NCBI GenBank assembly: GCA_021846695.1
Contig: JAJZWN010000051.1
Location: 1 to 9,523, forward strand
Reading direction: 5' to 3'
Length of the DNA stretch: 9,523 nt
From: Thermoplasmata archaeon
GTDB lineage: Archaea > Thermoplasmatota > Thermoplasmata > Thermoplasmatales > Thermoplasmataceae
A model generated the notes under the pieces. It did no database searches and was not told where the DNA came from. It worked only from the letters and a program-made list of their open reading frames with translations. Below are positions 1 to 9,523 of the stretch, one piece after another; the stretch's first letter is position 1, and each line of letters starts with the position of its first letter. Both the position numbers and the translations under genes were made by a program.

Positions 1-1255
1 CTCCGGCACCGAGTAGTATGAGTCCTTTCTTATATGCATTTTCTACGGTTTTATCTCTTAGCCCACGGAAGTGTGCCTTTGTCTTCCTGTTTTTGACAAA
101 ATCTATTGCCTGCATTAATCCGAGTCCTCTCACATCACCTATATTATCATATTTATCTTGCAATTCATGTAACCTCTTATTCAGGTAACCTCCAGCACTT
201 CTGGCATTGCCAATCATATCCTTCTTTTTAATTTCCTCTATTGTTGCACGGCTTGAAACAGCAGCGAGAAGATTCCCACCAAATGTGTTTGAGTGCAAAC
301 CTGATTTCTCAAAATTGTACCGGCTTTTGACAACTGATGCACCCATGGGTATCCCAGAGGCTATTGATTTTGCCACAGACATAATATCTGGATCAACATC
401 GAAATATTCAGACGCAAAGAAATAACCGGTTCTGCCAAAGCCAGTTTGCACCTCATCCATTATATACAGTATTTCATTGTCGTGGGCAACTTCCATGAGT
501 TTTTTATGGAAATCCCTTGGCGGTACTATGTATCCACCTTCACCCTGTATTGGTTCAACAAGTATAGCTGCAACATTATTTGACGGCAGAAACTTTCCAA
601 ACACATAATCTTCAAGATAATCTATGGTTGCATTTGTCAGATCCTCAGGATTCTCATAACCATCTATATTGAATGGATTTCTGTATGGGTCAGGAAATGG
701 AATATGTGTTACACCACCCATCTCAGGGAAAAATCCCTCATGATGCACAGGTTGAGATGCTGTAAATGCAAGGGCTCCCATGGTTCTTCCATGGAATCCG
801 CCGATGAACCCTACGAACTGTGGCCGCTTTGTATAACTTCTGGCCAGTTTCAACGAGGCCTCATTGCTCTCAGCACCACTGTTGGTATAAAAGACCTTTT
901 TATCATGACTTCCTGGAGAAACCCCAATTAATGCCTTTGCTGATTCAACCTGTTCACCATAATAAAAATCCGTGCCTGCGAAATGCCATAGTTTATGCAA
1001 CTGATCCTGAACCTTTGAAATAACGTATTCATTGCCATAGCCTATGTTTGTCGTGCTTATACCGCTTGAGAAATCAAGAAAAACATTGTTATCAACATCC
1101 TCAATATAGCACCCCTGACCCCTATAGGCAACTACCTGCAAAGCTTTTGTGGACGTAGCCAGATATTTTTCATCCTCTTCTATAATTTTCTTTGCATTCG
1201 GTCCTGGCAGGTCTGTTAATATCTTGACACCGTTTAGCAACGCATTATTTTCCAT
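1..1255 (-). CDS. Class III PLP-dependent aminotransferase (4-aminobutyrate/ornithine/broad-specificity type), C-terminus cut by window edge
   Basis: Reading the minus strand from the ATG at 1255-1253 gives 418 uninterrupted codons to the left edge. The product moves amino groups between amino acids and 2-oxo acids using pyridoxal phosphate, in the cytoplasm. Motifs of fold-type I class III enzymes appear in order: NSGAESNEA (about 125-133) in the phosphate-binding region, GGFHGRT (152-158), EPIQGEGG (234-241), DEVQTGFGRTG (267-277, D267 binds the PLP pyridine nitrogen), the Schiff-base lysine K296 in VAKSIASG, and NTFGGN (323-328). Family members usually have about 430-455 residues, so roughly the last 20-35 are outside the window. 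The start is supported by a TATA box centred 24-25 bases upstream, which implies a leaderless mRNA. Substrate cannot be fixed: 4-aminobutyrate, ornithine, acetylornithine or several amino acids are possible, and related archaeal enzymes include racemases. Next to a large secreted protease, a role in amino-acid catabolism is a reasonable inference. Confidence 0.92.
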   Translation of the reverse strand, partial: MENNALLNGVKILTDLPGPNAKKIIEEDEKYLATSTKALQVVAYRGQGCYIEDVDNNVFLDFSSGISTTNIGYGNEYVISKVQDQLHKLWHFAGTDFYYGEQVESAKALIGVSPGSHDKKVFYTNSGAESNEASLKLARSYTKRPQFVGFIGGFHGRTMGALAFTASQPVHHEGFFPEMGGVTHIPFPDPYRNPFNIDGYENPEDLTNATIDYLEDYVFGKFLPSNNVAAILVEPIQGEGGYIVPPRDFHKKLMEVAHDNEILYIMDEVQTGFGRTGYFFASEYFDVDPDIMSVAKSIASGIPMGASVVKSRYNFEKSGLHSNTFGGNLLAAVSSRATIEEIKKKDMIGNARSAGGYLNKRLHELQDKYDNIGDVRGLGLMQAIDFVKNRKTKAHFRGLRDKTVENAYKKGLILLGAG

Positions 1256-1473: not shown

Positions 1474-4400
1474 TTATTTTTTAAGCCTTCTGATTGCAAG
1501 CAGATATCCTGCAAGTCCTATTCCAATTGAACCTGCTGCCACGCCTCCATATGCTATATCATAGACAATGCCATTGCTTTTAGATAACTTCGATACTGTA
1601 TGGCCAAGGTTAGAAATCTGATTATCTGTAGTTAATGTTGTACTGTTTTGGGATATTATTCCATCCTTTTGTATTACCTGCACTGTTACAGGATATGATC
1701 CATCTTTAAGCCCCGTTGTATTAAATGAGTAATGTATCAAACCTGTATTTGTCGTATTATACACGTCCTTACCTGCTATGAACAATTCTACATTTGATAT
1801 ATCATTTCCGACCACATTTAGCTTGATATTCACTGTTCCATTGTACGAATCGTTCTGTACTGGGGATATTATATTTATGTGTGCCTGTCCAGGAGTAATT
1901 TTATTTACGGTGGAGTTTTCGTTTATGATTCTAGACATATTCAGATTTAATGTATTTAGGCTACTGGAAACCATTGTTATAGTGCTATTTGTAGCTACTA
2001 TATTCAAACCGTATACATCGAATAAATGTATATTGCTGTTATTTACATATAAAGTACCGTTTATGCTAGAATAGTATATATTTAGATTAGAATTATTAAC
2101 TGTATTCATTGCTAATAAAACACTACCTGTAAGATTGCCAGTAAAATGGTCCATAGTAACATTATTTAAGGCTAGTCCATAATTCTGCACCAAAGAATTT
2201 TCAATGGTATTGGTGATGTAGTCATATGGCTCTATTGTTATCTCTTTTTGTGCATTTGAATTTGTGGTTGTCGGCACACCGTTGGAAGAGATACCTGATA
2301 CATAGATATAATATTGCCCAACAGGCAACTCAGCTGCGGTTAAGGATAAACCGTAATAATCTTTTCCATAACTGCCTGAGTTATATGGAGATGGTAGAAC
2401 CATAGTACCCTCCCATCTGTTTATAGTGGAATTATAATATAGTGGTATTTGCGTAAGTTCTGTTTCAATAGAATACTCCGAGCTCAATATTTTTGGGTAT
2501 AGTGTTGCTGAGTACATTCCATATTTGACCTCAGTTCCATTTTTAAATTGTATATTTGCCATTATATGTGTTGTTTCTCCCTCGTAAAGTGATGAATTTA
2601 CACTAATTTTTGGGATATTATACTGGGATGAAACATATATCTGCCCATAGAACGACCCGTTAATGTAATCATTGTAGTTTACGGATTTGTATGTTGTATT
2701 GATTAATATTGTGTATAACCCCGAGGTGGCATTTAAAGGTACAGGTAGTTGGTCAGCCACAGCCACACCAGTAATAAGTTCTAAATCTACAGGTTTTGTG
2801 GTAATTTTGCTCACAACCTGATTGTTTGGATTAATCAATGAAAATGTTATATTTGAGCAATAGGAACCCAGACCTGTTAATTCGTTAGTAGGTGGCATTA
2901 CAGTACCACGAACTAATATATTCTGGCCAGCGCCAACAGTTCCAGGCTCACCAATGACAGGCCCAAAGATCTCAGTACCTTGAAGATACGCTCCATTCAT
3001 GAAAGGAATATATGCATATGCATTTATACCTTTCAATAATGCAACCGTATCAGGATAGTTTCCCAGTATAAGCCCACTCAATGTTCCATTAGTATCAACC
3101 AGGGTCAAATTGAGATCATTTGTATATTCATTTGACATTATGGAATAAGTATACAGTGACATTGTAACATTATATGGTTTTAAATGAAATTGTGTATTAT
3201 TTACCACTGTCCCATTTAACCATTCTAATTCTCCACTAACTGGTATGCCACATTCTGTTGATATTGGTTCTGTTGCTGATGGGTTAAATATATGAACATA
3301 ATATCCGCTGAATATGTTGTCAACATTATTTCCGTAGGTTGTTCCATTGTGCCCAGAGACATCTATATAAGAAGGACCTGTGGCATTTGATGGCATGATA
3401 AATGAGGATTCCCATACATTTTTTGATGCGAGTTTAGACAATGAACTATTATAAGACAATTTGGTAGACAATACCGTTCCATTCAATGTTACTAATGATG
3501 CATTATAATAGCCTGTGGTTACATTGGATAATTTCCCTGTAACATTTTCTTGGATTTCTGCCAACACATATACAGTCATACCCGGGGTATATTCCTGCAA
3601 GGCAGTAGCATTATTCATGCCCAGGGCAATATCTGTTAAATTTTCATTTGTAGTTTTTATTATAATATTAAGTTTAGGTTTAACATTGTAATTAAGCAAT
3701 TTATATTCCTTTGCAAACGCTCCTATATTCAATGAACCCCATCCATTGACCAGGTTGTATCCATAATGGTCGGTGAAGGGTATATTATATCCAAAAGTCA
3801 CAGGATTAAAGACCTTGCTATAATTATGTTCACCCATATAATATATGTCTGGATTTATCATTCCTGCCTTTGTATGGTCAGCATCATCCATTAATGCCAT
3901 TAATCCAGAAAATAGGGGGCTCGCCTCACTGGTTCCACCTGATAATCCCGTAACATTTCCTGGCATAACATAGAAGAATCCCGGATATAAAGTAGCTTCA
4001 AATGACAAATCAGGGACCATCCTACCATTCGGGTAACTTTTAGGTGTCTTCAACGAGTCCTGATAAAATGGTTTAGGTTGTATATAACTTATTCCACCAG
4101 TTGATCCACCATAATTCACTTCTTGAGGAACAAAACCGTAATTGGACCATGCGGTTTGGTTAAATGATACTACCTGCGTTCCGTTTATATCAAGGTATGT
4201 GCTTGTTCCACCCACAGCTGTTACATATGGTGATGTTGCAGGATATCCCACCGTTCCTAGTGGACCAGTGCTGAAACCGCTTGCTCCAACATCTCCAGAA
4301 GATGCACTGAATGTTATGCCCTCCAATGACCCCATAGCATATAATTCATTCGTGGTCTGTATACATGCCTCATATCCGCTCGCAGTACTGGAAAGATCCG

Positions 4401-5499
4401 ATTCAGGTATGGAGAAGCTCTGCGATAGTGTATTGACCTTATCCTGCGAATCTATAGTGGCTATTAAGGGTGCAAGGGCACAATTAAGATTCCCTATATA
4501 CAGTGTTATATTCGCTCCTGGGGCCATGGTATGTGAGGATTCAACATCAAGGCTTATTTCTCCTGCCCACCCAGATGTAACACCACATAGAGGTTGATAA
4601 GGGCCTACTGGCACTATTGTAAAATTGGGGGAATTAGATATATTGAATTCATGGTCAAAATAACTTAATTGCTCTTTTATATACGGATCACCACCAAAAT
4701 CAAGTATTCCAATAGTTTTACCAGAACCATTGTATCCTTCTTTATACAATGATGTAGCGTTATAAACCTGCTCAAGATATTTAGGTGAATATCCTTCTAA
4801 GGGTGCGGTTTGATTTTCACTTTTATATGTATGCTGAAATTCCTTTTGTGTTACCAAAGTGGAAGGATGCGATAAATATAAACCTGTAATATTTGTGACT
4901 AGGACATTAACATTATTCAATGAAGGGGTGCCGTATCCATAATAATAACTCGAAATTCCATTTGAATAACAACTTATATTTAATCCCAACTCATTTGATA
5001 TATACCCTGCAGATTGTGATGCGACTATTATAGGGTCTGAAGATGAAGAATCTACATGAAAGCCTTTACTTTTTAAGATCGTAATTTCATGATTATATCG
5101 ATTAACGGGCAAAAACATGTTTTTTATTTCCTTATTAGTCATAAATTTATGATATAACGGAGATCCAGGAGTATTAACTTCATTGGCATATGAATTTAAA
5201 AGTGATACATTATTTAAAGGAACATCTACTGTAAATCGTATATTTTTGTTTGTAGGAGTTTGGTGTATATATTTATATCCTTTCAATATGGTGTTATTTA
5301 CAGGAATCGGATGATTGTTAACATCCATACTATTTAGACCGGGATGCAATGTATTAACGTTTGCGTTAATATCGCCAACATAATTTCCATTTCCTGTTTG
5401 GGAAATCGCCGCAAAGGCAGAACCAACCATGATTATAGCTGTAAAAACTATTAAAAACATTTTAGTATTATTAATATGAGATTTTCTAATAACACTCAT
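1474..5499 (-). CDS. Secreted, membrane-anchored S53 (sedolisin/kumamolisin-type) acid peptidase with pro-domain and long beta-rich stalk
   Basis: This 1341-residue protein should act outside the cell, cutting proteins at acid pH. A basic N-terminus and hydrophobic stretch (about 14-30, ending SAFA) form a signal peptide. Residues about 75-235 match the pro-kumamolisin activation domain (SPLYHKFMT near 113-121). The catalytic domain spans about 245-600: E314 and D318 in EISLDVE, oxyanion aspartate D403 in SGDVGASG, and nucleophile S524 in SGGTSEASP. The calcium-site motifs near 563-591 are unusual: FNPVTFGYN and GYNLVNGWGSLN carry Pro and Asn where Asp ligands are normal. Residues about 610-1200 are Asn/Ser/Thr-rich beta repeats, then an Ig-like module (about 1200-1280), a transmembrane helix (about 1315-1336) and the basic tail RRLKK. 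About 49 N-x-S/T sequons suggest heavy surface glycosylation. Typical S53 enzymes are far shorter (pro plus catalytic domain, about 550-650 residues). A TATA box about 25 bases before the ATG supports this start; Met14 would lose the basic signal N-region. Confidence 0.93.
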   Translation of the reverse strand: MSVIRKSHINNTKMFLIVFTAIIMVGSAFAAISQTGNGNYVGDINANVNTLHPGLNSMDVNNHPIPVNNTILKGYKYIHQTPTNKNIRFTVDVPLNNVSLLNSYANEVNTPGSPLYHKFMTNKEIKNMFLPVNRYNHEITILKSKGFHVDSSSSDPIIVASQSAGYISNELGLNISCYSNGISSYYYGYGTPSLNNVNVLVTNITGLYLSHPSTLVTQKEFQHTYKSENQTAPLEGYSPKYLEQVYNATSLYKEGYNGSGKTIGILDFGGDPYIKEQLSYFDHEFNISNSPNFTIVPVGPYQPLCGVTSGWAGEISLDVESSHTMAPGANITLYIGNLNCALAPLIATIDSQDKVNTLSQSFSIPESDLSSTASGYEACIQTTNELYAMGSLEGITFSASSGDVGASGFSTGPLGTVGYPATSPYVTAVGGTSTYLDINGTQVVSFNQTAWSNYGFVPQEVNYGGSTGGISYIQPKPFYQDSLKTPKSYPNGRMVPDLSFEATLYPGFFYVMPGNVTGLSGGTSEASPLFSGLMALMDDADHTKAGMINPDIYYMGEHNYSKVFNPVTFGYNIPFTDHYGYNLVNGWGSLNIGAFAKEYKLLNYNVKPKLNIIIKTTNENLTDIALGMNNATALQEYTPGMTVYVLAEIQENVTGKLSNVTTGYYNASLVTLNGTVLSTKLSYNSSLSKLASKNVWESSFIMPSNATGPSYIDVSGHNGTTYGNNVDNIFSGYYVHIFNPSATEPISTECGIPVSGELEWLNGTVVNNTQFHLKPYNVTMSLYTYSIMSNEYTNDLNLTLVDTNGTLSGLILGNYPDTVALLKGINAYAYIPFMNGAYLQGTEIFGPVIGEPGTVGAGQNILVRGTVMPPTNELTGLGSYCSNITFSLINPNNQVVSKITTKPVDLELITGVAVADQLPVPLNATSGLYTILINTTYKSVNYNDYINGSFYGQIYVSSQYNIPKISVNSSLYEGETTHIMANIQFKNGTEVKYGMYSATLYPKILSSEYSIETELTQIPLYYNSTINRWEGTMVLPSPYNSGSYGKDYYGLSLTAAELPVGQYYIYVSGISSNGVPTTTNSNAQKEITIEPYDYITNTIENSLVQNYGLALNNVTMDHFTGNLTGSVLLAMNTVNNSNLNIYYSSINGTLYVNNSNIHLFDVYGLNIVATNSTITMVSSSLNTLNLNMSRIINENSTVNKITPGQAHINIISPVQNDSYNGTVNIKLNVVGNDISNVELFIAGKDVYNTTNTGLIHYSFNTTGLKDGSYPVTVQVIQKDGIISQNSTTLTTDNQISNLGHTVSKLSKSNGIVYDIAYGGVAAGSIGIGLAGYLLAIRRLKK

Positions 5500-5528: not shown

Positions 5529-6017
5529 TTTATTTGTTATTCAAACGTCATCTTTACATTGTATTATATAAACTTATTCAAACCAGTTATTCTGTTTAAT
5601 TCCCTTTATATTATAATTTCCGTCAGTTATTATTTTTATAATTACCTATAATGTTTTATTACGTTCTCGATCCTCCATATGCATGCATTTTGCCATAATT
5701 GCTTATTGTCTCATATAGCCAGAATCAGCCATAGAATCTTTGATATTACTGAAAATGCTAAAGGGCTACAGTCTGCTTGGAAAAATGTCCATCAACGAGA
5801 TTATCTTTGAACTGTCAAAGATGGAGAGGATAGTAGAAAAGATTATTGGTGTGTTCAAGGACATGATACCTATGGGTTAAAATAGGCGAGTTCAGATTCT
5901 TATAATTATCTTGGTTCTTTTTTGTTCATGGTATCTACTTCGTAAGTCATAAACTTCCTTTCTGACATAATCATCTGTAAAAAATTTCATAGGTTTACCG
6001 AAAATCTCAAAAGGACT
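5529..6017. other. Long AT-rich intergenic region between divergent genes
   Basis: The peptidase gene runs leftward and the ferritin-VIT gene rightward from this spacer. Apart from their promoters at its two ends, it holds a transposase C-terminal relic at 5719-5880 and a short minus-strand open stretch (5892-5990) that I do not accept as a gene. In 5529-5716 I see only low-complexity AT-rich sequence with no RNA gene or clear repeat. Its length, compared with the other gaps in this window, fits an old insertion site now decaying. Confidence 0.5.
5719..5880 (+). pseudogene. Decayed C-terminal relic of a DDE transposase (IS1634/IS4-like)
   Basis: After an in-frame stop at 5716-5718 there are 53 sense codons ending in TAA at 5878-5880; the only ATG-initiated form is 41 residues from 5755. 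The peptide contains the string SINEIIFELSKMERIVEK. This resembles, from memory, the extreme C-terminus of IS1634-type transposases, where a hydrophobic helix is followed by a FELSK-like segment and a basic end. The DDE catalytic core is absent, no terminal inverted repeats were found, and there is no promoter of its own. I regard it as the tail of a lost insertion sequence. It could instead be a small unknown protein. Confidence 0.42.
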
Positions 6018-6044: not shown

Positions 6045-7034
6045 ATGGTTGCCGATTCCAACCCAAAGTATCAGGTAAAATTTCTTCGTGATGAATTGAC
6101 TGATATGATATTCTATACTTATCTATTTAGGAAAACAGAAGACCCAGAGCTAAAGGAAAATTTCCGGAAACTGGCTACTACAGAAAGTGAGCATGCTAAT
6201 TTCTGGGGTCAGGCATTGAAATCCTCCAATGTGGACGTTAATAAAATAACATACAGGAAATTCAAATATTTTTTCATGAAACTATTAAGGAACATACTTG
6301 GAAAAAGCCTTATTATTAATCTTCTTGAACATGGTGAATACCAGTCGATTAAAAAATATAAAGCATACCTTGACAGTTATAAACAGGACGATGACTATAA
6401 GAAAAAGGTAAACGATTTGATAATCTCTGAAATGGAGCACGAAGAAATATTTGCAAACAAAATCTCTATGAGTGCAAAGAATATACAAAAAAGCCGGGAT
6501 TTTTTATACGGAATGAGTGATGGACTTGTGGAAGTCTTAGCTACCCTAGTGGGCCTTTCTGCAATAATAACAAGCCATATAGACATAGCATTAAGTGGTG
6601 TGGTTGTGGGCATAAGTGGAACATTCAGCATGACCCTGGGAGCATATCTTGCACAAAAATCAGAATCTGAATATAAAATTGCCATGCTCAACCGAAAGAA
6701 TATATTCTCTAAAAGCAAGGGAGTGGAAAATATGATTCAGCAATATTCTTCGGAGGCTACAAATTCCGCATTAAACACTGCAATTTCCTATGTACTTGGC
6801 GCTGTAATTCCCATACTGCCCTTTATTTTCTTTTATAAATATACTGCAGTAATACTTTCAGTGACACTTGTGTTCATAGCACAGGGAATCTCAAACTCAA
6901 TTGTGGCATTATCTCTTAATACACCCATATTTAAATCTGGACTCAGGTCAGCATTACTGGCACTGGGAGCTGCTGCAGTAACTTTTACAGTAGGAGAAAT
7001 ATTCCACCTGATATTCCACATTTCATTGTTTTGA
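6045..7034 (+). CDS. Ferritin-like domain fused to VIT1/CCC1 membrane domain (MbfA-like iron/manganese transporter)
   Basis: The 329-residue protein has two parts. Residues about 8-145 form a four-helix rubrerythrin/ferritin-like domain with likely di-iron ligands: E17, then E47 and H50 in ESEH, E98 in HGEY, and E129 and H132 in EMEH; the two ExxH motifs are diagnostic. Residues about 152-329 form a VIT1/CCC1-type membrane domain with about five helices (roughly 153-176, 180-203, 247-265, 267-288, 302-326). It includes the family motif around DGLVEVLATLVG (159-170) and GTFSMTLGAYLAQKSESE (192-209). Characterised relatives with this architecture (bacterial MbfA) export iron, and CCC1/VIT1 proteins move Fe(II) or Mn(II) against a proton gradient. 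Exporting excess Fe(II) would suit an acidophile in iron-rich water, which is inference. The ATG is set by the TATA box 24 bases upstream. The gene appears monocistronic, with 89 bases and a separate promoter before the next gene. Confidence 0.88.
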   Translation: MVADSNPKYQVKFLRDELTDMIFYTYLFRKTEDPELKENFRKLATTESEHANFWGQALKSSNVDVNKITYRKFKYFFMKLLRNILGKSLIINLLEHGEYQSIKKYKAYLDSYKQDDDYKKKVNDLIISEMEHEEIFANKISMSAKNIQKSRDFLYGMSDGLVEVLATLVGLSAIITSHIDIALSGVVVGISGTFSMTLGAYLAQKSESEYKIAMLNRKNIFSKSKGVENMIQQYSSEATNSALNTAISYVLGAVIPILPFIFFYKYTAVILSVTLVFIAQGISNSIVALSLNTPIFKSGLRSALLALGAAAVTFTVGEIFHLIFHISLF

Positions 7035-7123: not shown

Positions 7124-7918
7124 ATGGTGTTGAATATTATTGAAATAAACAATCTGTACAAGCGTTATGGTAATACTATAGCCCTTAATGGCATAAATTT
7201 ATCCATAGCAGGTGGACAGATATACGGCATTCTTGGTCCTAATGGTTCCGGCAAAACAACTTTACTAAAAATAATTGCTGGCATATTGCCTGCCTCTTCA
7301 GGTGACATAATGGTTGATGAAATATCAGTTTCAAGAAATGCAGACAATATAAAATCCATGATCGGATATATACCTGAAACACCTGCATTATACGAATCAC
7401 TTACACCCATAGAATATTTCAATTTCCTCGCATCGGTATTCAAAATAGATGACAATATATTGAGAGACAGGGTAAACGCATTTTCCAATGCACTTGAAAT
7501 AGGGAAATATCTTGATGAATTTATAGGGTCCTTATCATTCGGGACAAAGCAGAAGGTTGCAATAATAGGATCATTAATACATGATCCCAAAATAATTGTT
7601 ATGGATGAGGGAATGAATGGACTCGATCCAAAATCATCTAAGATAATCAAGGAACTATTGAAAGACATGACAAAAAAGGGAAAAACGGTAATATTTTCCA
7701 CGCATATTATGGAAATAGCAGAGAATGTGTGTGATACCATATCTATACTATACAATGGCAATATAGCGGGCACTGGGAATCTTGACCAGTTAAAAAATGA
7801 GGCAGGATCCAGCAATAATGACCTTGAGGGTATATTCCTAAAGCTTACTGGCGATGAAGATCTTGATAACCTGCTTGATTCTTTGAGGGAATCCATAAAG
7901 TCAACCACTCCTCCCTGA
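7124..7918 (+). CDS. ABC transporter ATP-binding protein (ABC-2/exporter type)
   Basis: A 264-residue cytoplasmic ATPase subunit that drives an ABC transporter. Walker A is GPNGSGKTT (38-46). The Q-loop position carries Glu (GYIPE, 81-85), as is common in CcmA/NatA-like ATPases. The signature is LSFGTKQ (137-143), Walker B is IIVMDE (157-162) followed by an unusual Gly where Pro is normal (DEGMNGLD), and the switch histidine is H194 in STHIME. Length and the DLEGIFLKLTG segment near 233-243 fit exporters paired with a separate permease. That partner is probably the gene starting at 9403. An IscB element lies between them. The last residues before the TGA at 7916-7918, about STTPP (260-264), probably come from the element's left end, and the native gene likely ended within a few codons after ESIK through an ATGA overlap with the next gene. 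Function is probably intact because only the extreme tail is changed. The substrate is unknown. Confidence 0.93.
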   Translation: MVLNIIEINNLYKRYGNTIALNGINLSIAGGQIYGILGPNGSGKTTLLKIIAGILPASSGDIMVDEISVSRNADNIKSMIGYIPETPALYESLTPIEYFNFLASVFKIDDNILRDRVNAFSNALEIGKYLDEFIGSLSFGTKQKVAIIGSLIHDPKIIVMDEGMNGLDPKSSKIIKELLKDMTKKGKTVIFSTHIMEIAENVCDTISILYNGNIAGTGNLDQLKNEAGSSNNDLEGIFLKLTGDEDLDNLLDSLRESIKSTTPP

Positions 7919-8160
7919 CGGAAGGGCTTGTTCCGTGAGGAACAGCGTAAGAGTTGATTAGGGGACTTTAAAAACATGGTGAAACATATGAAAGAAAGGC
8001 AGAAGTTAGACCGGAGAAATACATACACACCTACAGATGCTCCACAAGTCCGTGGCAACTGTGATCATGCATTAAATAGAGAGGAAACTCTCAGTGTGCA
8101 TGGTTTAAAAACCCCTTCTAACAACCCCGATGTGGACCTACAGTCAGGCATGACTGGGCA
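7887..8160 (+). ncRNA. Predicted IscB omega RNA (HEARO-type), with guide segment at its 5' end
   Basis: IscB omega RNAs lie directly 5' of iscB and carry the guide at their 5' end, copied from DNA outside the element. Here the region has perfect helices separated by few bases: TTGTTCC/GGAACAG (7928-7934 with 7939-7945, one G-U pair) capped by GTGA; CCAC/GTGG (8042-8045 with 8052-8055); an outer CATGCA/TGCATG (8066-8071 with 8097-8102) enclosing GAGAG/CTCTC (8079-8083 with 8088-8092) capped by GAAA; and CAGTCA/TGACTG (8141-8146 with 8151-8156). GGACTT (7963-7968) is complementary to AAGTCC (8046-8051), the loop of the CCAC hairpin, giving a possible pseudoknot. TCAAC/GTTGA (7901-7905 with 7953-7957) could close the first domain. 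The guide would be about 7887-7902, the ATPase gene's end. The exact ends are uncertain by about 10 bases on the left and about 30 on the right. Confidence 0.78.
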
Positions 8161-9402
8161 GGACCTGAGGGTTCCTGTTATAAACATGCGCAACGAACCA
8201 TTAATGCCAACAACACCAGGAAAGGCACGAACACTATTGAAATCTGGAAAAGCAAGGGTGATCAGTTCAAATCCATTCACTATACAACTTCTATATGCAA
8301 CTGGAGAGACAAAACAACCAGTAACATTGGGTATAGATGCTGGATACAAGCACATTGGATTCTCTGTGGTAACAGAAAAAAGAGAATTGATCTCGGGAGA
8401 AGCTGTCATGAGAACTGACATGCCAAAACTGAACGTGGAGAAATCCATGTATCGCAGAGGCAGGAGAAACAGGCTGTGGTACAGGCAATCACGGTTCATG
8501 AACCGGGGGAACAACAGGGAGGGATGGTTTGCACCTAGCATAGAGCATAAGCTCCAGACACATATCAGCCTTATTGAGAAGCTGAAGAGGATCCTTCCGG
8601 TAACTAAAACCGTCATAGAAGTCGCATCCTTTGATACCCAGAAGATGCAGGATCCCGGGATATCAGGGATAGAATACCAGCAGGGAGAACTTCAGGGATA
8701 TGAGATCAGGGAATACCTCCTTGAGAAATTCCATCTTACCTGTGTGTATTGCAGCAATACAAACATACCACTAGAGATAGAACATCTCACACCTAAATCC
8801 AGAGGCGGTTCCAATACAGTAGACAATCTTGCCATCTCATGCCATGACTGTAATCAGAAGAAGAATAACCTCACTGCAGAAGAGTTTGGACATCCTGAAG
8901 TGAGAAAAACGGCATCGATGCCATTGAGAGTTGCAGCATTCATGAACACCGTAAGGTGGAAACTCACCCAGCTCACAGGATCAGCATATACATTCGGGTA
9001 CATAACAAAGAAGAACCGCATTTCTCTTGGACTGGATAAGAGTCATGCCAACGATGCATTTGTGATTGCTGGAGGAACCACGCAGGCAAGATCCACTGTT
9101 TTCAATGCAACACAGAGAAGAAGAAATAACCGTTCCTTTCAAATTAACAGAAAGTGGTTCATGCCATCAATAAGAAGGAGAAGATATCCCTTACAACCCG
9201 GTGATGTAGTGGAATTCGGGGAGAGCAGATACGGCGTTGTTGGGGTTCATAGTTATGGAAATTATGTAATAATAAGGAATGGTAAAAAGAAGATGGATGT
9301 TAACGTAAAGAAGGTAAAGTTGGTAAGATACTGTAAGTCCATACAGTTCTGGGTCCCAATTCCCCCCACGCTAACGCACGGGATCTCCTGGGGGGGAGTT
9401 AG
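7903..9402 (+). mobile_element. ISC/IS200-IS605-like element carrying iscB and omega RNA, no tnpA
   Basis: The element consists of a structured left end (omega RNA), iscB, and a G/C-run hairpin at the right end (9358-9400) typical of IS200/IS605-type subterminal hairpins. It has no terminal inverted repeats and no visible target duplication, as expected for this group. The right boundary is placed before ATGA (9403-9406), which is the start of the downstream gene and fits the reported IscB/HEARO flank. The left boundary is uncertain, somewhere in about 7899-7911: it should fall after the second base of an ATPase codon if the old stop was the TGA of ATGA. No Y1 transposase is encoded, so movement would need TnpA from elsewhere. 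The element is visibly richer in G+C than its neighbours, suggesting recent transfer. Confidence 0.8.
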
Positions 9403-9406
9403 ATGA
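8150..9406 (+). CDS. iscB: IscB RNA-guided nuclease (RuvC + HNH, Cas9 ancestor family)
   Basis: IscB uses an omega RNA to find and cut double-stranded DNA, HNH cutting the guide-paired strand and RuvC the other. Numbered from the ATG at 8150 (418 residues): an N-terminal PLMP domain with P17-P20 and the following AR-LL-GKARV and PFTIQL pattern; RuvC-I D63 in GIDAGYKHIGF; an arginine-rich bridge helix (about 101-120, YRRGRRNRLWYR); RuvC-II E157 in IEVASFD; an HNH domain with zinc pairs C198/C201 and C231/C234 and catalytic H212 (IEH) and N226 (DNL); RuvC-III H299 and D302 in SHANDAF. A basic C-terminal domain (about 317-402) should read the target-adjacent motif. The frame is open back to an ATG at 7976, giving 476 residues, but those 58 extra codons have no IscB homology that I recognise and overlap the RNA structure, so 8150 is preferred. 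The last 16 residues are read from the right-end hairpin. The TGA stop lies in the ATGA that starts the next gene. Confidence 0.93.
   Translation: MTGQDLRVPVINMRNEPLMPTTPGKARTLLKSGKARVISSNPFTIQLLYATGETKQPVTLGIDAGYKHIGFSVVTEKRELISGEAVMRTDMPKLNVEKSMYRRGRRNRLWYRQSRFMNRGNNREGWFAPSIEHKLQTHISLIEKLKRILPVTKTVIEVASFDTQKMQDPGISGIEYQQGELQGYEIREYLLEKFHLTCVYCSNTNIPLEIEHLTPKSRGGSNTVDNLAISCHDCNQKKNNLTAEEFGHPEVRKTASMPLRVAAFMNTVRWKLTQLTGSAYTFGYITKKNRISLGLDKSHANDAFVIAGGTTQARSTVFNATQRRRNNRSFQINRKWFMPSIRRRRYPLQPGDVVEFGESRYGVVGVHSYGNYVIIRNGKKKMDVNVKKVKLVRYCKSIQFWVPIPPTLTHGISWGGVR
9358..9400 (+). repeat. Right-end hairpin of the IscB element
   Basis: AATTCCCCCC (9358-9367) pairs with GGGGGGAGTT (9391-9400), ten pairs with one G-T wobble, around a 23-base loop. 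Subterminal hairpins like this are recognised by the Y1 transposase TnpA in IS200/IS605 elements. It ends three bases before the TGA stop of iscB, within the coding frame. Confidence 0.7.
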
Positions 9407-9523
9407 AAAATCAGACTTTGTTTTTGAGCAAATTGATAATGGTTGAACAGCGGTACCTGGCCCTAAAGGATACGCCGAAATTTCAAAGAACTATAAATTC
9501 AGGCAATAAAAAGTCATATTTTA
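9403..9523 (+). CDS. Start of the next operon gene, probably the ABC transporter permease (cut by right edge)
   Basis: The ATG at 9403 overlaps the iscB stop in ATGA, and 40 codons stay open to the window end. The visible peptide (MKNQTLFLSKLIMVEQRYLA and on) is mostly polar, with no transmembrane segment yet, so the family cannot be read from it directly. The assignment rests on position: ABC-2 type ATPase genes are normally followed at once by their permease, often with an ATGA overlap, and the ATPase at 7124 would have this neighbour if the IscB element were removed. Such permeases often begin with a short cytoplasmic stretch like this one. It may be translated by coupling to iscB, or from the operon mRNA. 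An unrelated gene is not excluded. Confidence 0.6.
   Translation, partial: MKNQTLFLSKLIMVEQRYLALKDTPKFQRTINSGNKKSYF

Follow-up and report, generated by a model that had tools for sequence, protein, structure and literature searches.

The DNA analyzed here is a 9,523-nucleotide stretch of a Thermoplasmata archaeon contig (hereafter the window), in which a gene for an ABC-2 type transporter ATPase (7124..7918, +; ABC_tran match) is interrupted at its stop codon by a putative mobile element carrying the RNA-guided nuclease IscB and its guide RNA, the omegaRNA or HEARO RNA. The ATPase reading frame gains five element-encoded residues (STTPP) and then reaches a new stop. It is followed by the omegaRNA (7900..8141, +) and by the IscB open reading frame (ORF; 7976..9406, +), which encodes 476 residues when opened mechanically at ATG 7976. 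A sequence-only reading of this DNA had placed the RNA directly upstream of the gene; instead, the RNA shares approximately the first 55 codons of the ORF. We read the locus as an ordinary IscB retention nuclease on a non-autonomous element, with a start codon relocated into its own guide RNA, and assign this reading a probability of roughly 0.78. The family assignment, the overlap, the ATPase-restoring insertion, the shift of start codon and Shine-Dalgarno sequence across a group of related loci, and covariation in the RNA all support it at the level of sequence.

The same sequence-only reading had proposed, for a Thermoplasmatales-type genome, an IscB-omegaRNA system whose motifs are intact, and had named searches with IscB profiles and the Rfam HEARO model as checks. 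Both searches gave scores over the cut-off. The product of 7976-9406 scored 357.5 bits against the NCBIfam IscB model NF040563 (cut-off 175), and the two Cas9 models listed scored far under their own cut-offs. Pfam matched RRXRR (8.5e-61, 205.3 bits) and HNH, and IscB chains of solved structures matched the product by sequence. Based on these matches, a residue check and a predicted model, the core (8198..9067, +) comprises the PLMP domain, the split RuvC, the RRXRR bridge helix and the HNH domain. All of the proposed motifs could be located: the catalytic set is complete, with RuvC D121/E215/D360, HNH E269-H270, the zinc pairs C256xxC259 and C289xxC292, and PLMP at residue 75. In an alignment of 31 IscB sequences, hand-picked from the database protein relatives, the catalytic, zinc and PLMP residues were invariant, except that the last P of PLMP was nearly invariant. 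In four database entries (P0020, P0034, P0039 and P0044) the omegaRNA-encoded N-terminus resembles that of the window and the PLMP segment differs (ILNDDGKPLMPC type); such copies seem to have exchanged modules with one another.

For the omegaRNA, the match to Rfam HEARO (RF02033) reached 101.6 bits (E 1.4e-20, cut-off 83 bits) and spanned the full model, 1-211. On its own, the omegaRNA had a minimum-energy fold only mildly better than those of shuffles (z -1.72), and the evidence for the RNA is the Rfam match. One virus-labelled contig among the related loci (L042) carries two HEARO RNAs (3703-3951 and 4885-5145) about 1.2 kb apart, with a tRNA (4628-4701) preceding the second.

Among IscB proteins with a named source, those of Ferroplasma sp. 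Type II and Thermoplasmataceae are nearest, and the interrupted ATPase shares 86% identity with its Ferroplasma acidarmanus counterpart; together, these similarities indicate a Ferroplasma-like host. Six different IscB entries (P0005, P0007, P0008, P0013, P0020 and P0049) carry the name Ferroplasma sp. Type II, as would be expected if the family is mobile. The rarity of archaeal IscB, previously put forward as the main point of interest, did not hold up, as the copies are many and archaeal occurrence has been published; neither the family nor its host is new.

The simplest extent of the element is 7900..9402 (+), 1503 bp running from GTCAAC to GAGTTAG, which is shorter than the span of 7887-9406 proposed earlier and leaves the stop codon of the IscB ORF (TGA, 9404-9406) in the host flank, just beyond the element. 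Joining 7899 to 9403 restores an ATPase that ends ..RESIK followed by TGA, and the empty site is predicted to read ..ATAAA, then ATGAAAAATC. Among 14 ATPase relatives inspected (of 120 listed), ten end in ..SIK, three end otherwise, and one (P0121), whose ATPase is 98% identical, ends in ..SIKSTTPP as in the window and represents 22 member sequences on 4 contigs. Cuts at 7900|9400 and 7900|9404 likewise yield ..RESIK. The join 7899|9403 was preferred because the HEARO model begins with the G at 7900 and because the start GTCAA recurs in relatives (L001, L035, L038, L114, L042 and L039; it is absent from L037, L040 and L041). A join at 7900|9399 was rejected, since the ATPase would then exceed its relatives by 15 residues. 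Insertion at the ATPase stop codon, with the ATPase end restored by joining the flanks, may have occurred without a target-site duplication, as judged from the occupied site alone and with three cuts that fit. The repeat list of the window contained neither an end-to-end inverted repeat nor a flanking duplication. A possible right-end hairpin, CCCCCC.../...GGGGGG (9361..9397, +; DNA fold -8.9 kcal/mol), is weak and no better than shuffles (z -0.61).

Position relative to the HEARO start points to a predicted guide of 16 nt in the left-flank host DNA, 5' of the scaffold (7884..7899, +); a 5' guide of about 16 nt is described for IscB (PMC9640706). On the other side, ATGAAA (9403..9408, +) is the predicted target-adjacent motif (TAM), fits the NNRR motif of OgeuIscB (PMC9640706), and provides the TGA stop of the ORF. 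The C-terminal ends of the 52 closest proteins comprised 32 in R, 14 in S and three others, with three excluded as not comparable. Both the R and the S endings can be derived from the right end GAGTTAG read in two frames, in which case the R type needs TRR in the flank. Reading these C-termini as GTT AG|N TRR hints at an NTRR flank, the only flank DNA at hand being that of the window.

Taken together, these features suggest that a Ferroplasma-type archaeon hosts a non-autonomous element of the IS200/IS605-like kind, whose cargo would be the omegaRNA and IscB only. Transcription would run in from the ABC operon, so that the left-flank sequence becomes the guide of the omegaRNA. Guide-loaded IscB would then cut the empty donor site, consisting of the guide sequence followed by ATGA (which fits NNRR), where the element has departed or is absent, and cutting followed by repair would retain and spread the element.

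The preferred start codon lies within the omegaRNA, at ATG 7988..7990 (+), after GGTGA at 7978-7982, a 5-nt Shine-Dalgarno match. In the protein alignment, several relatives start with MKExQKL at the position of this ATG, from which the gene and the RNA overlap by 154 nt. An alternative, conventional-type ATG (8150..8152, +) lies just past the omegaRNA, where the best near-core Shine-Dalgarno match is 3 nt; the window thus has both. To compare starts, IscB DNA was gathered from viral_contigs by protein-core patterns (the best 80 of 165 and the best 80 of 205 loci, ranked by queries that contain the extension), with further loci from other searches. The 181 loci with an alignable core reduced to 136 distinct ones, 38 whose core frame stays open over 57 or more upstream codons and 98 whose frame does not (the conventional loci). 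From the 38, we took those with an in-frame ATG 57-66 codons upstream; six lacked it (L007, L110, L085, L167, L195 and L220), and two (L192 and L003) were removed by hand as they had a conventional ATG as well. The resulting set of 30 in-RNA loci consists of the window, which is the only archaeal DNA in the comparison, L001 from a WOR-3 genome, L114 from another genome of the same phylum, and 27 loci on virus-labelled contigs. The near-copies L161/L185 and L172/L173 are counted twice in it, and L160 and L166 share one contig. L143, L161, L171, L175 and L186 were scanned for HEARO on their contig stretches under other locus numbers, L039, L040, L036, L038 and L037, respectively. The WOR-3 genome that holds L001 (G001) has both an in-RNA-start IscB (L001/L031) and a conventional IscB with its own HEARO RNA (L032).

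The two groups differed in their starts. Among the 98 conventional loci, 83 had an ATG at most nine codons from the core and 97 had some start codon there, compared to an ATG near the core in 3 of the 30 in-RNA loci. In five of the 30, two of them near-copies, codons -3..15 relative to the core included no ATG, GTG or TTG. The upstream ATG fell on one common alignment column in 26/30 loci, including L001 in a shifted frame. HEARO matches passed the cut-off for 27 loci of this set, each with the ATG inside the matched region and 145-169 nt short of the 3' end of the match. A Shine-Dalgarno match of at least 4 nt preceded the near-core start in 80/98 conventional loci and in 3/30 in-RNA loci, and preceded the in-RNA ATG in 20/30 (mean of composition-shuffled sequences 12.0; a count never reached in 2000 shuffles). 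At a threshold of at least 5 nt, these counts were 64/98, 2/30 and 9/30, respectively. This ribosome-binding-site test is independent of how the loci were selected, although the loci are related and the counts of starts and Shine-Dalgarno matches are accordingly not independent of one another. In a core tree of 156 rows, the in-RNA label (50 rows, of which 20 are database proteins without DNA) required 6 changes, compared with 42.6 on average after shuffling; well-supported branches force three label changes, and the clustering does not establish a single origin. A search of named collections with L041 matched 21 phage records and 83 plasmid records; in the 20 rows listed, the match starts at residues 54-68, close to or past the conventional start. 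With the window as query, 86 plasmid records matched, and five of the 20 listed (H5, H6, H7, H13 and H16) begin at residues 18-42.

Alternatively, the window could encode a conventional IscB that starts after the omegaRNA, at ATG 8150 here and at GTG or TTG elsewhere, the upstream open frame being a by-product of a conserved RNA free of stops. The scarcity of Shine-Dalgarno matches at near-core starts and their presence at the in-RNA ATG argue against this, as do the five loci that lack any start codon near the core. Moreover, the IscB frame had no stop in the overlap (0/1242 codons), in contrast to 104 and 77 stops per 1134 codons in the other two frames, though the set was chosen for an open frame. 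In its favor are the downstream ATG of the window, the M found nearby in many Ferroplasma copies, the disorder of the extension in the predicted structure, and the lack of codon-level constraint described below; furthermore, N-terminal insertions have been trimmed where a downstream start is available (PMC13180657). On balance, we consider a conventional start unlikely.

Several observations weigh against a start inside the omegaRNA or limit what the comparison can say about it. Since the 30 loci were picked for an open frame and an upstream ATG, these two features are no tests of the reading, and because the viral_contigs lists were capped at the best 80 and ranked with extension-containing queries, the numbers 30 and 98 give no frequency. 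The group also has exceptions: L167 has the open frame without the in-RNA ATG, L169 has the in-RNA ATG with a broken frame, in L001 a portion of the stretch is frame-shifted, and the conventional loci L174 and L176 sit within the in-RNA group. The HEARO score of L155 was 77.0 bits, under the cut-off, and L157 and L162 had no match at the cut-off. The M near the usual start is retained in the window and in many Ferroplasma copies, and it is possible that translation in the window starts at ATG 8150. Lastly, the fifth pseudoknot pair of the Rfam model is formed in just 4 of the 30 loci.

The pattern of substitution in the overlap was also unfavorable. We compared 46 gap-free codons across 27 of the 30 loci, leaving out L001 (frame-shifted) and the near-copies L173 and L185. 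The overlap showed no third-position excess (0.338, 0.358 and 0.288 at positions 1, 2 and 3; p 0.94), compared to 0.42, 0.32 and 0.56 in 14 codons at the start of the core. Synonymous excess in the overlap was nearly nil as well (0.235 observed, 0.223 expected). Hence, nothing in the codon test indicates that the peptide is made or important. The same result bears on whether the N-terminal extension is a functional part of the protein, such as a tail that binds RNA or DNA and whose own sequence is the object of conservation. Its amino-acid sequence is indeed well conserved across the Ferroplasma copies, but the RNA accounts for this conservation: codon periodicity is absent, and the residue at the pseudoknot codon varies (P, L, S, I, H) while the pairing is kept. 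In an AlphaFold2 model (overall mean predicted local distance difference test score, pLDDT, 61.4), residues 1-60 had pLDDT values of 30-33 and the core folded better, so that the N-terminal approximately 60 residues are predicted to be disordered. A selected protein domain was rejected on the codon test and this model, and we regard a functional tail as very improbable.

A further difficulty is that a Pfam scan of five window ORFs found no transposase, Y1 included. Few HEARO nucleases are accompanied by TnpA (PMC9755519). The 'IS200/IS6' elements listed in Ferroplasma genomes (PMC12350378) might supply transposase in trans. Y1 transposases are present in both WOR-3-phylum genomes (G001 and G139), which is uninformative on the window. 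The missing transposase would suit a decayed or immobile remnant, an inactive copy that is inherited vertically, as would the nearly identical ATPase of P0121 with its like element-made ending in 22 member sequences. However, the window has a full-length ORF with all catalytic residues and an omegaRNA over the cut-off, and six different IscB entries are named for Ferroplasma sp. Type II, making such a remnant improbable.

What is conserved in the overlap is therefore the RNA and not the peptide, given the lack of codon constraint and the kept pseudoknot pairing. The pseudoknot has its 5' arm, GGGG (7961..7964, +), ahead of the in-RNA start, and CCCC (8125..8128, +), the 3' arm, falls within codons of the ORF; both are placed by the Rfam alignment and covariation. 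Across the 30 loci, with L162 out (its 5' arm was missed by the pattern) and L167 in, pairing held in 119 of the 120 cells given by four pairs in each of 30 loci, compared to 110 in the best of 5000 shuffles. The single unpaired cell belongs to L114, where the pattern apparently took the wrong 3' arm. The second and third pairs occur as GC, AT and TA types. The arm preceding the in-RNA start is purine-rich and reads AGGAGG in L001 and L037.

Under the reading we prefer, the start in this branch of IscB would have shifted from behind the omegaRNA to inside it, such that one transcript would serve as the guide scaffold and as the first ~50-60 codons of the nuclease, and the added N-terminal peptide would be tolerated without being of use. 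The arrangement of the pseudoknot suggests an additional step. Since its 5' arm precedes the in-RNA start and base-pairs with later codons, the folded scaffold could hinder initiation, and a translating ribosome would unfold the scaffold. Guide RNA and nuclease mRNA may then compete, with the pseudoknot of bound omegaRNA hiding the ribosome-binding region and stopping IscB synthesis, and translation destroying the scaffold. We offer this competition tentatively, as a possibility we hold to be rather less probable than its opposite. It would concern a branch found in Ferroplasma-type archaea, WOR-3 bacteria and many virus-labelled contigs.

IsrB lacks an HNH domain, and in TnpB systems the omegaRNA overlaps the 3' end of the ORF. 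The window system resembles the known IscB-omegaRNA (HEARO) systems, OgeuIscB and its relatives (PMC9640706, PMC9755519), in its PLMP, RuvC, bridge helix, HNH and zinc pairs, its pseudoknotted HEARO RNA, the 5' guide and a flank that fits the NNRR TAM. It differs from OgeuIscB-type systems in a frame that opens inside the omegaRNA, with an overlap of 145-169 nt in the 27 loci measured, and in its Ferroplasma-like host and predicted-disordered N-terminal ~60 residues. In IsrB-omegaRNA the coding region follows the RNA (PMC9581776), whereas here the start and approximately 50 codons lie inside the scaffold. A Shine-Dalgarno sequence within the terminal omegaRNA hairpin has been noted for IsrB, and a regulatory role suggested (PMC9581776); a start inside the scaffold would go beyond that case. 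As with TnpB-omegaRNA of IS200/IS605, the guide RNA would come from the nuclease's own mRNA (PMC10278001) and serve retention, but the overlap is at the 5' end of the ORF, and IscB belongs to the Cas9-side family. No description of an in-omegaRNA start was found in the literature searched; the founding IscB/HEARO papers were outside that search and may hold one. Trimming of N-terminal insertions, as in PMC13180657, would hide such a start.

The remainder of the window encodes other functions. A class III aminotransferase gene (2-1255, -; NF004426, 559.9 bits, cut-off 552) is truncated by the window end. In a 1341-residue protein (1474-5499, -), Pfam matched a pro-domain of kumamolisin type and, at the C-terminus, an Ig-like domain, with no match to a peptidase domain; it is perhaps a large secreted S53-type protease. 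A 41-residue intergenic open stretch (5755-5877, +) resembles a gene remnant and had no match in the Pfam scan, and a rubrerythrin-like domain fused to a VIT1-type iron transporter domain (6045-7034, +) suits an iron-rich habitat. The 9523-base window contains no CRISPR (clustered regularly interspaced short palindromic repeats) array; its sole repeat is one two-copy 23-nt repeat.

The element is a small system from an acidophile-related archaeon, for which guide, TAM and target are all predicted. Pipelines that trim N-terminal 'insertions' can conceal the in-RNA-start architecture, and in this branch, recoding or moving the RNA scaffold would necessarily alter the gene. The overlap would couple production of the protein to that of the RNA, and if guide RNA and mRNA do compete, the transposon would contain a built-in feedback switch that fixes the ratio of guide to nuclease. 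An in-RNA start across a divergent group thus offers a testable idea on how transposon nucleases may limit themselves.

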